Source of the DNA: Dietzia sp. B32
GTDB taxonomy: Bacteria > Actinomycetota > Actinomycetes > Mycobacteriales > Mycobacteriaceae
Assembly (NCBI RefSeq): GCF_024732245.1
Contig: NZ_CP093845.1
Location: 2,542,001 to 2,606,000, forward strand
DNA: 64,000 nucleotides
Direction: 5' to 3'
Each line of letters starts with the position of its first letter. The stretch's first letter is position 1. The position numbers were made by a program, and so were the translations under genes. Shown here piece after piece: positions 3,060 through 60,864 of this stretch. The notes under the pieces are model-generated. The model ran no database searches. It saw only the letters and a list, made by a program, of their open reading frames with translations, and was not told where the DNA came from.

Positions 3060-3881
3060 GTGGAGCTGCTCTATACGGGGATCATCGGGTTCGCCCGGAC
3101 AATGTTCAGGGTCCAGGGCCTGGACCTCACGATTCGCGGGGAGCGCAACTTCCCCGAGGTCGGCGGGGCGGTGGTGGTGATGAACCACACCGGGTACCTC
3201 GACTTCGTCTACGGCGGCATCCCGGCCCGCGTGCACAAGCGGTTCATCCGCTACATGGCCAAGGTCGAGGTGTTCGAGCACAAGGTGTCCGGGCCGATCA
3301 TGCGCGAGCTGAAGCACATCCCCGTCGACCGGACGGCCGGTAAGGCGTCCTTCGACGAGGCCGTCGCCCGGCTGAGGGCCGGGGAGTTGGTCGGTGTGTT
3401 CCCGGAGGCCACCATCAGCCGCAGCTTCGAGGTCAAGGGTTTCAAGTCGGGCGCGGTCCGGATGGCGTTGGCGGCCGACGTTCCCATCATCACCGTGACC
3501 CTGTGGGGATCGCAGCGGGTGTGGACCAAGGGCCTGCCCAAGAAGCTGCTGCGTCCCCGGGTGCCGATCATGATGGAGGTCGGCGAGCCGATGGCCGCGT
3601 ACGAGCCGGTCGAGGAGTGCACGCAGGAGTTGCGCTCACGGATGCAGGCCACGCTCGAGCGACTCCAGCAGGAGTACGCGGAGCGCTACGGCGCCTACCC
3701 GGCCGGCGCCAACTGGGTGCCCGCCCGTCTCGGCGGTTCCGCCCCCACCCTGGAGGAGGCCACGGCCCTGGACGAGGCCGAGCACGCCGAGCGCCTCCGT
3801 CGCCGCGCGCAGAAGGCGGTCGACCCGGAGGCCGACGCCCGTGACGAACCGACGGGACCGGCGGGCCCGGACGCTCCGTGA
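3060..3881 (+). CDS. 1-acyl-sn-glycerol-3-phosphate acyltransferase (PlsC family)
   Basis: This 273-residue protein probably moves an acyl chain from acyl-CoA to lysophosphatidic acid or a related acceptor at the inner membrane face. The family block I is NHTGYLDF (about residues 42-49; the H and D form the catalytic HX4D). Block III is FPEATISRSF, a variant of FPEGT. The last 50 residues are charged and low in complexity. The start is GTG at 3060 by the leaderless TAGGCT box; an upstream reading frame is open but would cross the divergent thioesterase promoter. Its stop overlaps the GTG of the HAD gene by 4 nt, so the two are co-translated. Confidence 0.88.
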   Translation: MELLYTGIIGFARTMFRVQGLDLTIRGERNFPEVGGAVVVMNHTGYLDFVYGGIPARVHKRFIRYMAKVEVFEHKVSGPIMRELKHIPVDRTAGKASFDEAVARLRAGELVGVFPEATISRSFEVKGFKSGAVRMALAADVPIITVTLWGSQRVWTKGLPKKLLRPRVPIMMEVGEPMAAYEPVEECTQELRSRMQATLERLQQEYAERYGAYPAGANWVPARLGGSAPTLEEATALDEAEHAERLRRRAQKAVDPEADARDEPTGPAGPDAP

Positions 3882-7016: not shown

Positions 7017-8626
<1,610 letters not shown>

Positions 8627-8711: not shown

Positions 8712-10064
8712 TCAGTCGGCGGTGGTGCTGCCGGCCGGGGCGGCGAGCTCGCGGACGGCGGTGTCGAGCTGGGCCGCGTGCACGAGCGTGGGCTTGGCCT
8801 CGCCGAGGTGCTCGAGGACCGGGGTGACCGAGGTCCAGAAGCGGCTCAGCGAGCTCAGCCCCTCGTTCTCCGCCCGGGCCTGGGCGCGCTCGGCGCGGGT
8901 GTCGTCGGCGCGGGTGGGGTGCAGGGCCGCGCGCTTGCCCTCGATCCGGTCGTCCTTGCGCTGCGAGATCACGTAGCCCAGCGCGAACGCCACACTCCGC
9001 GGCATCCGCCCGGTCAGCAGGACCTGCGCCTCCGGGTACTCGTCGAGGACCTGTTCGACCGCGCCGGACAGCTCCTCGACGAGCCGTGCGAAGGCCCGCC
9101 GGTCGATCTGCCGCCCGCTCGCGCCCGGGTACCAGCGCCCCGAGGGCAGCGTCCATGGGACGAGGGTCTGGGCTGCGCCCGGGCCGGCGTCGCCCGTGCG
9201 GTCACCGTTCGTGTCGGTGACGGGTCCGCCGTCGGTGGGGGCGACGACGACGACGAGGTCCGCCGCCTCCCTCAGTGGATGCCCCGCGTCCACCTCGGAC
9301 ACCGGACCGCCCCCGTCCAGCTGGAGGGAGAGCCAGACCCGCTGCACGGAGGTCCGGTCGGCCCGCGCCGCGGTCGCCGACCCGGCGGGGAGGGTGATCA
9401 TCGACAGTTCGGCTCCCGGTTGGCCTCGGCGGGACCGCCACCGGCGCTCGGCCCACATGTCGTCGCCGTCGTCGAAGTACACCGTCCGCACGCCCGTGTC
9501 GCCGCCGGGCAGCCGGCGCCTGCGGGCCTCGGTCGGCAACTCGGCCAGGTGGGTGCGCTCGCGCAGGAGGACGTCGTATCCGACCGCCAGCGCCGCCGGG
9601 AACGCGAGGTTCGGGGCCAGGACGAAGCCGGTCGCGTCGTCGTCGTCGTTCATCGCGCGCTCCAGCTCGTCGGAGACGTGGTCGACCTCCCGGCGCAGGT
9701 CCACCACGTCGTTCGCGGTGCCGAACCAGCCGGTGGCGGAGCGGAAGCCCAGGCTGCGGGCGTTGGCCACATCCACCGCGGCGCGCATCCGGTCCGCGCT
9801 ATCGGCCGGCAGCAGTCGCAGGTAGTAGAGGGTGCCGTTGTGGGCGAGGAGCCACGCGCGCAGGGCCATCGCCACCACGAGCACGACCAGGGTGCCGATG
9901 AACCACCCCAGCCGTGACGGCGACGTGCAGGCCTCCGACCACAGGTCCGGTACGGACGAGATCGAGCACGAGGCGTCCCGGGTGATGAGGTCCTCGGCGA
10001 CGAGGCCACCGAACGCGGTGGTCAGTGCGACGGTCAGGGCGATGAGCGTTTCCAGGACGAACAC
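8712..10064 (-). CDS. Two-TM protein of unknown function with an internal P...GY repeat
   Basis: I do not recognise this 450-residue protein with certainty. Two N-terminal membrane helices (about residues 1-25 and 50-75) anchor a large cytosolic domain. That domain contains two similar segments, GFVLAPNLAFPAALAVGYDV (about 145) and VLLTGRMPRSVAFALGYVIS (about 365), which share a hydrophobic strand, a Pro/Arg turn, an Ala-rich helix and GY. This layout faintly recalls SAVED-type nucleotide-sensor domains; that link is a guess. The start GTG at 10064 is preferred because TAGTCT lies 7 nt upstream; ATG at 10100 is the alternative. It is divergent from the TPM-like gene, 64 bp away, and interrupts the usual glf-glfT2 pairing. 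Confidence 0.7.
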   Translation of the reverse strand: MFVLETLIALTVALTTAFGGLVAEDLITRDASCSISSVPDLWSEACTSPSRLGWFIGTLVVLVVAMALRAWLLAHNGTLYYLRLLPADSADRMRAAVDVANARSLGFRSATGWFGTANDVVDLRREVDHVSDELERAMNDDDDATGFVLAPNLAFPAALAVGYDVLLRERTHLAELPTEARRRRLPGGDTGVRTVYFDDGDDMWAERRWRSRRGQPGAELSMITLPAGSATAARADRTSVQRVWLSLQLDGGGPVSEVDAGHPLREAADLVVVVAPTDGGPVTDTNGDRTGDAGPGAAQTLVPWTLPSGRWYPGASGRQIDRRAFARLVEELSGAVEQVLDEYPEAQVLLTGRMPRSVAFALGYVISQRKDDRIEGKRAALHPTRADDTRAERAQARAENEGLSSLSRFWTSVTPVLEHLGEAKPTLVHAAQLDTAVRELAAPAGSTTAD

Positions 10065-16164: not shown

Positions 16165-18270
16165 ATGTCGGAGGTGACGGCGGCGCGCCGGACCGGGCGC
16201 ACCGCACCGGTCTTCTGGACCGGGGTCGTGGTGGTGGTGGCGATCTTCCTCGCCGGGGCCTGGCAGCGGCGGTGGATCGCCGACGACGGACTCATCGTCC
16301 TGCGCACCGTCCGCAACCTCATCGCCGGCAACGGCCCGGTGTTCAATGCGGGGGAGCGGGTCGAGTCCAACACCTCCACGCTGTGGACCTATCTCATCTA
16401 CGGGGTCCATGAGCTCGTCGGGTACCGGCTCGAGCTGGTGGTCCTGGGCGTGGCGCTCACGCTGAGCATGGTCGCGGTGGTGTGCGCGATGGTCGGCACC
16501 CGCGTGATGTACCGCGGCACCCGCCGTGCGCCCGCCGGTGGCCCGGTACTGCTCCTGCCGTTCGGCGTGCTGGTCTATGTCATGCTGCCGCCGGCCCGCG
16601 ACTTCGCCACCTCGGGCCTCGAGACGGGTCTGGTGATCTGCTGGATCGGCGCCATGTGGATGGGGCTGCAGCTCTGGGCCCGCGCGCCCCGCCGTGAGGG
16701 GCGGTTCGGTCTGCCCGCGCCGGGCACCGCGGCGGTCGCCTTCATCGCCGGTCTCGGCCCCCTGGTGCGCCCAGAGATGGCGTTGGCCGCGGCCGCGTTC
16801 CTCGCGCTGATGGCCGCGGCCCGCCAGTCGTGGCGTCACCTCGGCTGGCTGGTGGTCATCGCCGGCACGGTCCCCGTTCTGTACCAGCTCTGGCGGATGT
16901 CGTACTACGCCCTGCCGTACCCGCTCACGGCGGTGGCCAAGGACGCCGGCGGGGCGAAGTGGGACAAGGGCGCCGAGTATGCGTGGAACCTGGTGGCGCC
17001 GTACGCGTTGCTGCTGCCGTTGGCCGCCGTCCTGATCGCGGGACTGGTCGCACTCTGGGCCCGCCTGGCCCTCCGCCGCGGAAATTCGCTACTCCCGCTC
17101 CGGATCCGCTACCCGCATTCGGGTAGCGGATCCGGAGGGACGGTAGCGGATCCGCGTGGCAGCGCCGACGACCACGCCGACGGCCACGACGACGGCCACG
17201 ACGACGCCGACGACCACGACGGCGCCGACGCCGACAACAACGACCACGACGACGACGAGGCCGGCCGCCTGCTCCGGCTGCGCCAGCGGGTCCGCTCCAC
17301 CCCGGTCGTCACGGCGGTCTTCCTCGGGGTGGCGCTGGTGATGCTGCTCTACGTGGTCCGCGTGGGCGGCGACTTCATGCACGGCCGCGTGCTGCTGCCG
17401 TCCCTGTTCCTGTTCCTCCTGCCGGTCTCGGTGGTGCCCCTTCCCGTCGGTCCCGCCCGCGGGTCCGCGGACGCCTCGGTGCGCCGGGTGACCGTCCCAC
17501 TCACCGCGGTCGCATGGCTCGTCGTCGTCGGCTGGGCGGTGACCGTCCAGGTCACCGAGGACCCCTTCCGCGAGGAACCGGAGTCGATCACGGCGGCGGG
17601 GATCGTGGACGAGCGCCAGTTCTACATCCAGCGCACGGGCCACAAGCATCCGTTGCTCGCCGAGGACTACCTGGACTTCCCCCGGATGCGGGCGCTGGTG
17701 CGGGACGTCACCGCGAACCGGACGGGTGCGGTCTTCCTGCCCGTGCCGGGATTCCAGGACCGGTGGGACGTGGTCTCCTACGACCGCCCCATGCCCGGGC
17801 TGGCGCCGTTCGAACTGCCCGAGGAGCCGGTCAAGACCGTCGTGTTCCTCAACCTCGGCATGACGAGCATGAACCTGCCGCTCGACGTGGACGTCTACGA
17901 CACCGTGGGGCTCGCGTCGCCGCTGGCCGCGCATACAGACCGGATGGAGGACGGTCGGATCGGGCACGACAAGTTCCTGCCGTACGACTGGGTGCTCGCC
18001 CGCACCGGCGTGGTCGAGGATCCGGTCAACTTCCCGCGGTGGATCGACGTGAACTGGGTGAACCAGGCGCAGGTCGCGCTGCAGTGCCCGGCCACCCAGG
18101 CGTTGATCGAGTCGTACTCGGGTCCGTTGACCCTGGAGAAGCGCTGGTCGAACGTGATGAACGCATTTTCATACGCCGAGTACCGGATCAACAGAATCCC
18201 TGCGTACGAGGTGCAGAGGTGCGGGTTACCGATGCCTGAGAAAGTGGAGAAGTACCAGGGCACTCGGTAG
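16165..18270 (+). CDS. aftB: Arabinofuranosyltransferase AftB, with an in-frame Asp/His-rich insertion
   Basis: This GT-C membrane enzyme adds the terminal beta-1,2 arabinofuranose to arabinan, using decaprenylphosphoryl-arabinose. The N-terminal catalytic Asp pair is in RWIADDGLIVLRT (D40-D41), followed by GPVFNAGERVESNTSTLW, and a soluble C-terminal domain begins near residue 440. It has 701 residues, about 70 longer than M. tuberculosis AftB (Rv3805c). The excess sits at about residues 306-366, between two membrane helices: first a copy of a palindromic repeat (17081-17153), then a run of Asp, His, Ala and Gly (ADDHADGHDDGHDDADDHDG). The insert is in frame, so the enzyme is probably still functional. 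It follows ubiA by 16 nt in the same operon. Confidence 0.95.
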   Translation: MSEVTAARRTGRTAPVFWTGVVVVVAIFLAGAWQRRWIADDGLIVLRTVRNLIAGNGPVFNAGERVESNTSTLWTYLIYGVHELVGYRLELVVLGVALTLSMVAVVCAMVGTRVMYRGTRRAPAGGPVLLLPFGVLVYVMLPPARDFATSGLETGLVICWIGAMWMGLQLWARAPRREGRFGLPAPGTAAVAFIAGLGPLVRPEMALAAAAFLALMAAARQSWRHLGWLVVIAGTVPVLYQLWRMSYYALPYPLTAVAKDAGGAKWDKGAEYAWNLVAPYALLLPLAAVLIAGLVALWARLALRRGNSLLPLRIRYPHSGSGSGGTVADPRGSADDHADGHDDGHDDADDHDGADADNNDHDDDEAGRLLRLRQRVRSTPVVTAVFLGVALVMLLYVVRVGGDFMHGRVLLPSLFLFLLPVSVVPLPVGPARGSADASVRRVTVPLTAVAWLVVVGWAVTVQVTEDPFREEPESITAAGIVDERQFYIQRTGHKHPLLAEDYLDFPRMRALVRDVTANRTGAVFLPVPGFQDRWDVVSYDRPMPGLAPFELPEEPVKTVVFLNLGMTSMNLPLDVDVYDTVGLASPLAAHTDRMEDGRIGHDKFLPYDWVLARTGVVEDPVNFPRWIDVNWVNQAQVALQCPATQALIESYSGPLTLEKRWSNVMNAFSYAEYRINRIPAYEVQRCGLPMPEKVEKYQGTR
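17081..17159 (+). repeat. Palindromic REP/MITE-like repeat, copy A, inside aftB
   Basis: This stretch aligns without gaps to 59751-59829, with about 51 of the first 70 positions identical. Ends are inverted (AAATTCGCTAC and GTAGCGGATCC). The middle folds as a perfect 18-bp hairpin: 17098-17115 pairs with 17120-17137 around the loop CATT. It is translated in frame as part of AftB. Confidence 0.75.
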
Positions 18271-59750: not shown

Positions 59751-59829
59751 AAAATCCGCTACCCCGCCTCGGGATCCGCTAGTCGGATTGGAATCGCCGA
59801 TCCGGATTCGCAGTAGCGGATTTCGTGGG
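59751..59829 (-). repeat. Palindromic REP/MITE-like repeat, copy B, next to glfT1
   Basis: This intergenic copy has exact 11-bp terminal inverted repeats, AAATCCGCTAC and GTAGCGGATTT (59752-59762 and 59813-59823). It aligns without gaps to the copy inside aftB. It fills the gap between glfT1 and the TIGR03086 gene and could also act as a terminator. Confidence 0.75.
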
Positions 59830-60864
59830 TTAGCCGCCGGGCTTGACGAACCGCTCGCCCGCGCCCATCCGCTGCAGCCGGAGCCACTCGCGGAATCCGG
59901 CGGGGTCCCGGCGCGAGACGAGGAAGTACCAACCGAACCGCAACAGTTCCTGCGGGATGAGCCGCCGGTTGCCGGGCTGGGTGAGAACGTACCCGCGGTT
60001 GCGGTAGGTGAAGTGGCGCTTGACCGGGTCGTCGGGGAACTGGGTGTGCATCCGCCCACCGAGGATCGGCTTGAACTCGTCCGAGCCCTGGGGATGCAGG
60101 TAGGCGGTGGTCAGGCAGGTGCCGAAGGGCACACCGGAACGGACGAGCCGACGGTGCATCTCCACCTCGTCGCCGCGGATGAACAGGCGCAGGTCCGGAA
60201 CGCCCACCCGGTCCAGGCAGTCCGCGGTGAACAACGCGCCGTTGAACAGCGACGCGATGCCGGGCAGCAGGTCCTCGGTCGGAACCGCGCTCCCGCCCGG
60301 CTCGCCCGGCTCGCCCGGCTCGCCCGGCTCGCCCGGCTCGCCCGGCCCGTCCGACCCGCCCGCCCCGCCGGTCCCGCTGCCGTCCCCGTCCCCGGTGAAC
60401 AACTCTGAGCGGTACCGCCGCCACACCAGGCCGCGCCGCAGCGGGAACGCCAGGCGATCGGGATCGTCGAGGTCGCACACCACCGGCGAGACCTCGGCCA
60501 GGCCGTGGCGGTCCATGCAACCGAGGAGTGTCGCCAGCACCTCCGGGCCCTCCGGGCGGCCGTCGTCGTCGGCGCACCACACCAGGTCGGCGCCGGCGGC
60601 CAGGGCGTGGAGCATCCCCAGGGCGAACCCGCCCGCGCCGCCGAGGTTGTGCCGGGAGCCGATGTACGTGGCCTCCACCGGCTGCGACTCGACCAGCTCG
60701 CGCACGGCCTGCTCGTCGGCGTTGTCCACCACCACGAGGTGATCGACCGGGCGGGTCTGGCCGCACACCACCCCGAGCGAGGCGCGCAACTGCTCCAGCC
60801 GTCGGTGCGTGACCACGACGGCCACCACCCGCCGTGCGTCGGCGCCCGCGCCGTCAGCCCTCAT
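59830..60864 (-). CDS. glfT1: Galactofuranosyltransferase GlfT1
   Basis: This GT2 enzyme (344 residues; Rv3782 equivalent) adds the first galactofuranose residues to the lipid-linked rhamnosyl-GlcNAc acceptor before GlfT2 extends the chain. The N-terminal GT-A fold has VVAVVVTHRRLEQLRASL and SRHNLGGAGGFALGMLHAL, the metal motif in DLVWCADDDGRPEG, and FIRGDEVEMHRRLVRSG. A Gly-Pro-Glu repeat (GEPGEPGEPGEPGEPGG) is inserted at about residues 173-190, encoded by a 9-bp tandem repeat. The ATG at 60864 overlaps the end of the wzt gene by 11 nt, so wzm-wzt-glfT1 form one operon. Confidence 0.94.
   Translation of the reverse strand: MRADGAGADARRVVAVVVTHRRLEQLRASLGVVCGQTRPVDHLVVVDNADEQAVRELVESQPVEATYIGSRHNLGGAGGFALGMLHALAAGADLVWCADDDGRPEGPEVLATLLGCMDRHGLAEVSPVVCDLDDPDRLAFPLRRGLVWRRYRSELFTGDGDGSGTGGAGGSDGPGEPGEPGEPGEPGEPGGSAVPTEDLLPGIASLFNGALFTADCLDRVGVPDLRLFIRGDEVEMHRRLVRSGVPFGTCLTTAYLHPQGSDEFKPILGGRMHTQFPDDPVKRHFTYRNRGYVLTQPGNRRLIPQELLRFGWYFLVSRRDPAGFREWLRLQRMGAGERFVKPGG
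60301..60345 (-). repeat. Five perfect 9-bp tandem repeats in glfT1
   Basis: CTCGCCCGG is repeated exactly five times in a row, with a degenerate sixth copy before it. Each unit encodes Pro-Gly-Glu, so copy-number change keeps the frame. Confidence 0.9.

Follow-up and report, generated by a model that had tools for sequence, protein, structure and literature searches.

The gene aftB of Dietzia sp. B32 contains a palindrome that is read in frame and is followed by an Asp/His-rich run. A similar palindrome lies between two genes elsewhere in the window, the stretch of 64,000 nucleotides that was analysed. This raises the question of what the palindrome is and whether it has a role in the AftB protein. 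The earlier note had taken it for a mobile repeat that inserted into aftB, kept the frame and possibly expanded into an acidic loop that could bind metal or tune the enzyme.

The palindrome in aftB consists of four boxes

The two copies in the window (Table 1) were aligned without gaps and were identical at 52 of 72 positions; the runner-up ungapped match of the element on the plus strand of the window reached 38 of 72. Both copies are strong palindromes, as the earlier note had pointed out, with complementary arms of 41 nt at 78% and 33 nt at 76% and RNA z-scores of -9.0 and -4.0, respectively. The 701-residue reading frame was identified as AftB by NCBIfam NF041481 (E=2e-184, yet below the curated cut-off of this model) and by the structure 9dlf in the PDB (E=1e-157). 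The element lies in frame within it, also as had been noted, and judged by the open frame it is translated.

Each copy of the element is a 72-bp palindrome in which the 9-mer ATCCGCTAC occurs four times, twice direct and twice inverted, with the box starts 20, 19 and 20 bp apart. The consensus is AAATCCGCTAC-n11-ATCCGCTAC-n10-GTAGCGGAT-n11-GTAGCGGATTT, with two direct boxes in each arm and the arms inverted. Since TAG occurs in two of the three frames of GTAGCGGAT, each consensus strand reads through in one frame only, and this single open frame is the one used by aftB. The mean RNA folding energy of the element is -50.5 kcal/mol. No U-tract was found after the element, as the T fraction in the positions directly following was 0.15, 0.09 and 0.22 against a background of 0.133, and therefore the element is not a classic intrinsic terminator. 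Rfam returned four matches for the region 16900-17400, every one below the gathering score.

Two further sites in the window were recorded. A lone exact box is found at 3246-3254 within a coding gene, which counts against the four-box explanation given below. The region around 60254-60371 belongs to a minus-strand gene and has matches of 72-86% elsewhere in Dietzia genomes, at several sites, which probably reflect a conserved motif of paralogous genes.

Table 1. Features of the aftB locus and of the second element copy in the window
Feature	Position	Strand	Evidence
aftB, terminal beta-(1->2)-arabinofuranosyltransferase, 701 aa	16165..18270	+	ORF, profile and structure matches
AftB loop, residues 299-372, corresponding to cytoplasmic loop CL4 (TM8-TM9), hypervariable in Dietzia	17059..17280	+	alignments; PMC12041299
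Four-box palindromic element, aftB copy; residues 307-330 = NSLLPLRIRYPHSGSGSGGTVADP, last codon ends 17154	17082..17153	.	genome BLAST; match to covariance model R1 at E=4e-16 (R1 was built from 20 copies including this one); translation
Box A1 = ATTCGCTAC, one change from ATCCGCTAC	17084..17092	+	sequence, alignment
Box A2 = ATCCGCTAC	17104..17112	+	sequence, alignment
Box B1 = GTAGCGGAT on +	17123..17131	-	sequence, alignment
Box B2 = GTAGCGGAT on +	17143..17151	-	sequence, alignment
Asp/His/Ala/Gly-rich tandem run, separate low-complexity expansion	17164..17259	+	TRF, period 12, 7.6 copies; orthologue alignment
Second element copy, between two co-directional (-) genes	59752..59823	.	

The element belongs to a family dispersed in Dietzia genomes

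When the aftB copy was compared with its own genome by BLAST, 12 places besides itself were found at E<0.01. A box-pair pattern gave 18 forward matches and the reversed control pattern none. The covariance model R1, built from 20 copies, detected 23 places in the own 3.73-Mb genome and 21 in G009, and had matches in 22 of the 23 Dietzia genomes; the 535 two-strand matches in these 23 genomes correspond to roughly 270 copies, with G017, G016, G012 and G022 among the genomes poor in copies. The search of the own and related genomes that the earlier note had called for thus revealed a large dispersed family.

From this family 155 copies of 18 genomes, and two more of G018, were examined. They were located with a box score of at least 25 out of 36 (22 for some loci), a threshold biased towards intact boxes, and 127 of the 155 scored 33-36. 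The ungapped 72-bp scorer found no copy at L116, L127, L130, L134, L137, L139, L144 and L145, which were dropped from the context counts; at least L137 and L139 hold copies of another length. Three copies of the own genome detected by the model only (L102, L103 and L106, all convergent) were excluded from the orthology set.

With a strict pattern, all 20 matching stretches among the named genomes were from Dietzia. Among 301 genomes drawn from the taxonomic family, 43 had a model match, 21 of them within the genus. Outside the genus, 16 loci from 6 of the 22 genomes with matches were inspected. The Dietzia box recurs unchanged in the genus g27, where the spacing is 19 bp and the centre usually GCAATTGC-like. 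The single G108 element has TGCCGCTCC in all four boxes, and related boxes occur in G287. The matches in the other 16 non-Dietzia genomes may be chance hairpins.

A half copy is present at the very start of the own contig (L047:1-44), which thus begins inside an element; its opposite end resembles a 5S rRNA gene. Several draft contigs (e.g. L235, L246, L298) likewise have an end in or close to an element, as is expected of very stable hairpins. By eye, and from the aftB positions only, the copies of G000 and G009 seem to be more frequent up to about 0.65 Mb from the presumed origin.

Three unrelated genes carry the element in frame

The element is read in its sole open frame not only in aftB but also in the genes for a LysE-type exporter (PF01810) and a PxpB-like protein (PF02682, CT_C_D; its NCBIfam match is below the cut-off). 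The orthologues were located by protein homology, and translation of the copies was deduced from the open frame. In all three genes the frame is the same and a peptide like NPLL..IRYP..GSGS.GGVAD results, which lies in a linker of variable length.

A readable AftB loop was available in 20 genomes, that is all 23 except the fragments of G011 and G019 and the divergent protein of G014. Nine of them have the element (eight clearly, G003 in degenerate form), 11 lack it, and G006 may hold a remnant. The LysE-family exporter has a clear copy in G000, G009, G004 and G010 and a degenerate one in G006 and G021, and the other 11 of the 17 aligned genomes have none. For the PxpB-like protein, where the partial matches of G020 and G022 were left aside, the copy is clear in the same four genomes, degenerate in G006 and absent in the other 9 of 14. 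On the AftB tree the element was gained or lost at least 5 times, with 3 of the changes forced by well-supported branches, which suggests that the insertion in aftB is old and was repeatedly lost. Loss of the aftB copy accompanied a low copy number genome-wide (8/1 versus 2/9, Fisher p=0.003), but this link was not significant on the tree, where supported branches give 2 independent pairs and all branches together give 5.

The boxes are conserved while the spacers drift

In 32 groups of orthologous copies the mismatch rate was 0.085 in the boxes, 0.294 in the spacers and 0.36 in the centre, and the spacers exceeded the boxes in 29 of the 32; pairs with more than 40 differences in 72 positions were left out of these weighted rates. 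The coding copies were then compared separately. In the nine aftB copies the box sites differ at 0.094 and the spacers at 0.335, and at third codon positions the rate was 0.053 in the boxes versus 0.40 outside. In lysE (5 copies) box and spacer differ at 0.172 and 0.336, and in pxpB (4 copies) at 0.194 and 0.394. After removal of the degenerate copies, with three genomes each, the rates were 0.019 versus 0.227 for lysE and 0.093 versus 0.121 for pxpB, so that the contrast in pxpB is weak.

The boxes bring very rare codons into these genes. In the well-scoring genes of the window, aftB excluded, CTA makes up 0.005 of the 1604 Leu codons and GTA 0.014 of the Val codons. CTA was kept in 8 of 8 aftB, 3 of 3 lysE and 3 of 3 pxpB copies, and GTA in 7 of 8, 3 of 3 and 3 of 3, respectively; these counts exclude the degenerate copies of G003, G006 and G021, and among the eight aftB genomes there are four that are closely related. 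Since the rare codons are kept while the surrounding protein positions drift, the constraint in the coding copies appears, from the sequence comparison, to fall on the nucleic acid and not on the protein. Selection seems to act on the DNA or RNA boxes themselves.

The two arms also change together. In 68 two-sided groups of copies, which drop to 52 once links by one flank are merged, double changes, with both partners of a box pair altered, numbered 29, and 25 of these produced a different Watson-Crick pair; shuffling gave 10.9 double changes and 5.9 that restored Watson-Crick pairing (for the latter with a maximum of 13 in 2000 shuffles). Pairing of the spacers was 0.734 versus 0.607 when shuffled. 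Taken together, the arms are kept complementary, either by selection or by template switching.

From the equal spacing near two helical turns and the identical direct boxes we infer that each box is recognised individually. On balance we lean towards the view that the element is a family of four-box palindromes recognised by a putative host trans-acting factor, and that it is a passenger in aftB, independent of the Asp/His run. Such a sequence-specific factor would recognise the boxes either in the duplex, where boxes about two helical turns apart would lie on one face, or in an extruded or transcribed hairpin, as the covarying arms might indicate.

Most copies are located downstream of genes

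Of the 155 copies, 92 lie between convergent genes, 29 between co-directional and none between divergent ones. A further 17 are located within a gene, 6 overlap the end of a gene and 11 were found at the edge of a contig. Merged to 52 independent Dietzia loci, the counts are 34 convergent, 12 co-directional, 0 divergent, 3 inside genes and 3 at gene ends. Convergent orientation applies to 8 of the 44 neighbouring gene pairs of the window, with 806 of 4447 intergenic bp; the genes were called with our own codon-score caller trained on the window, and the baseline is that of this one window. The median distance of the element to a 3' end was 37 bp, and the copies are found shortly after stop codons. 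Outside Dietzia, 8 of the 16 loci are convergent, 7 co-directional and 1 divergent (L324, a weak copy). At the 59752 site the element is absent in G011, G012 and G019, where the two genes abut.

Some sites had features of their own. At convergent copies the 25 nt between the stop codon side and the element, read from the gene, are C-rich and G-poor (about 0.50/0.27 versus 0.45/0.35 in element-free convergent gaps). At L017:840-1573 the element seems to provide the final codons and the stop codon of a macro-domain gene (PF01661). In L098:1435-2679, L099:1433-2701 and L100:1437-2705 a gene whose AbiEi_4 match is weak and below the Pfam cut-off stands between two elements, which are about 1.2 kb from each other, an arrangement found in several species. 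The neighbours of this gene are presumably a metallo-beta-lactamase-like gene on one side and a Crp-like regulator on the other.

The location suggests another explanation, that the element acts in the RNA at mRNA 3' ends. The hairpin would end or protect convergent transcripts from both sides, as a REP/BIME-like attenuator or stabiliser, and ribosomes would keep the aftB copy open. The convergent excess over the window pairs, the short distance to 3' ends, the folding energy and the covarying arms are all consistent with this. However, there is no U-tract, three genomes, in which the two genes abut, do without a copy at the 59752 site, and neither the one sequence common to all four boxes nor the box constraint inside translated aftB is explained. 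We therefore regard this explanation as possible but unlikely. The element resembles a bidirectional intrinsic terminator in its very stable hairpin between convergent genes and its A/T ends, but it has only three T before the composition returns to background, its boxes are constrained and some copies are inside coding regions.

The GTAG/CGTC REPs and BIMEs are described in PMC3733652 as palindromes near 3' ends, between convergent or unidirectional genes and in some cases within genes. The Dietzia copies likewise lie downstream of convergent and co-directional genes, and their box contains the GTAG tetramer. In contrast to the REPs, this GTAG is paired in the stem and is not an unpaired end tag, the length is 72 bp instead of 20-40 bp, and no RAYT was found. 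The RAYT transposase (Y1_Tnp, PF01797) was searched in 23 Dietzia genomes, several of them incomplete drafts, without a match; the control was positive in 5 of the 14 named genomes searched, E. coli among them. Mobilisation by a RAYT is thus unsupported.

One lineage shows a changed box and a recent-looking burst

In Dietzia G018 (L252, L253, L271, L329) all 5 sampled copies have outer boxes of the type ATCGGCGAC, 9 of the 10 exactly, whereas the inner boxes are mixed and show no uniform switch. Three of these copies were known and two came from 40 sampled stretches, where both model R1 and a scan for palindromy only detected them; the remaining 8 matches of the latter were weaker, unrelated palindromes. 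The G018 copies are 87% alike, compared with 64-79% within ten other genomes. This likeness together with the changed box suggests a young burst, and the switch may be the burst of one variant instead of a stepwise change.

Possible sources of the element were examined. The aftB copy had no BLAST match in a phage or a plasmid collection, so an origin from these was discarded. An exact arm-pattern scan hit four viral contigs, three related actinophage-like ones and one of 40% GC. The three contained no full element and the fourth gave one weak score of 24, and we judged these matches compatible with chance. In the actinophage-like contigs (L325:3442-3470, L326:1072-1100, L327:6202-6230) an HTH gene and an integrase flank two direct ATCCGCTAC boxes with a spacing of exactly 20 bp. 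Insertion into pre-existing palindromes was also rejected, as the flank complementarity was -21.3 kcal/mol within a locus versus -21.8 kcal/mol between loci (40 rows, with L271 of G018 twice).

The element shares with MITEs that it is small, non-coding, dispersed and built of inverted repeats. No target-site duplication was seen at one nearby empty site, where the flanks have diverged, and no autonomous partner was found, although two distant arms in G020, described below, may be candidates for its ends. Rickettsia palindromic elements are described in PMC10969869 as short palindromes in frame in unrelated genes, with a recognisable peptide and with intergenic copies. Compared with this description, the Dietzia element is likewise in frame in several unrelated genes with a related peptide, but it is shorter, about 72 bp as compared with about 150 bp, it contains four equal boxes, it is mostly intergenic, its boxes are measurably constrained as nucleic acid at coding sites, and its hosts are Actinobacteria. 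The top-ranked open papers contained no report of a four-box element in Dietzia or other actinobacteria.

A purely selfish, non-autonomous palindrome of the RPE or MITE type, with the boxes as transposase sites and no function for the host, would account for the dispersed copies, the burst in G018 and the in-frame copies in three unrelated genes. Unpartnered arms were absent in 1.38 Mb of sequence apart from the half copy at the contig start, and every arm in G000 and G009 falls inside known elements. G020 has five single arms (on C4, C5, twice on C16 and on C45). The two on contig C16, at 7108-7136 (+) and 9955-9983 (-), are inverted and 2.8 kb apart; they might belong to two elements that each have one arm degenerate, or they might mark both ends of a longer element, which would suit a selfish origin. 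The slow change of the boxes at old orthologous sites and the kept rare codons are unexpected for dead insertions, and neither the Y1 transposase search nor the empty site speaks for transposition. A purely selfish element is accordingly improbable in our judgement.

The excess of Watson-Crick double changes could stem from template-switch correction of quasi-palindromes, which would keep the arms alike without selection. As the sole cause of maintenance this is very improbable, since it can neither preserve the likeness of the two direct boxes within an arm nor leave the boxes unchanged while the spacers of the same palindrome drift.

The Asp/His run of AftB is separate from the element

The Asp/His/Ala/Gly run directly follows the aftB copy, as the earlier note had stated, at residues ~334-365. 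The element and the run occupy the residues between 298 and 373. Here 74 residues correspond to about 19 in the solved AftB of M. chubuense, which makes the surplus by alignment about 55 residues and not 70 as had been estimated. In the solved structure, according to PMC12041299, the corresponding loop CL4 between TM8 and TM9 is cytoplasmic and disordered, and the cap domain is periplasmic. AlphaFold2 predicted no secondary structure for residues 306-364; this is weak support because the mean pLDDT was 49.5 and much of the periplasmic part was also below 50.

The run is a tandem array of a 12-bp unit that is long in the own genome, while its near relative G008 has a shorter version. In other species the acidic stretch is shorter, whether or not the element is present. 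The orthologue alignment thus agreed with the earlier note in that the loop varies between lineages and part of them carry the element, but G017 has an acidic loop without it. A single insertion that brought the run along does not fit, as the element is old in aftB. The run is, by its sequence, a local tandem expansion independent of the element. The element lengthens a disordered cytoplasmic loop by about 24 residues, probably without a role for the enzyme, and neither metal binding nor tuning of the enzyme is supported. The interpretation of the earlier note was therefore partly supported. Its proposal of a mobile insertion that expanded into a metal-binding or regulatory loop is hardly credible, because apart from the adjoining of copy and run it meets an element without such a run in G005, G010, G013, G009, G004 and G015, an acidic loop without an element in G017, and a homologous loop that is cytoplasmic and disordered according to PMC12041299.

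A putative recognition system of the cell

For the four-box family with a host factor, the following course is conceivable. The element would have been copied around the ancestral Dietzia genome and, at least once more and recently, in the lineage with the changed box. It would have been tolerated where it is harmless, namely in the gaps of convergent gene pairs and, in rare cases, as an in-frame insert in the linker of a protein. We tentatively propose, as a plausible though not yet favoured extension, that four equally spaced 9-bp boxes in a palindrome form a cellular recognition system. Its putative factor would not be of the Y1/RAYT type, and its box could be switched, from ATCCGCTAC to ATCGGCGAC at the outer positions in one Dietzia lineage and to other sequences in other genera. 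Selection on it would hold the very rare codons in aftB, the LysE-type exporter gene and the PxpB-like gene.

The search for the binding factor is tractable, since copy-rich genomes hold about 20 sites, some species have hardly any and one lineage has a switched box. The family adds a translated palindromic repeat for mycolic-acid bacteria to the RPE and REP cases, with one copy in a gene of cell-wall arabinan. More broadly, it is an example, accessible to measurement, of genes in which codon preference appears to yield to selection on the DNA or RNA sequence.
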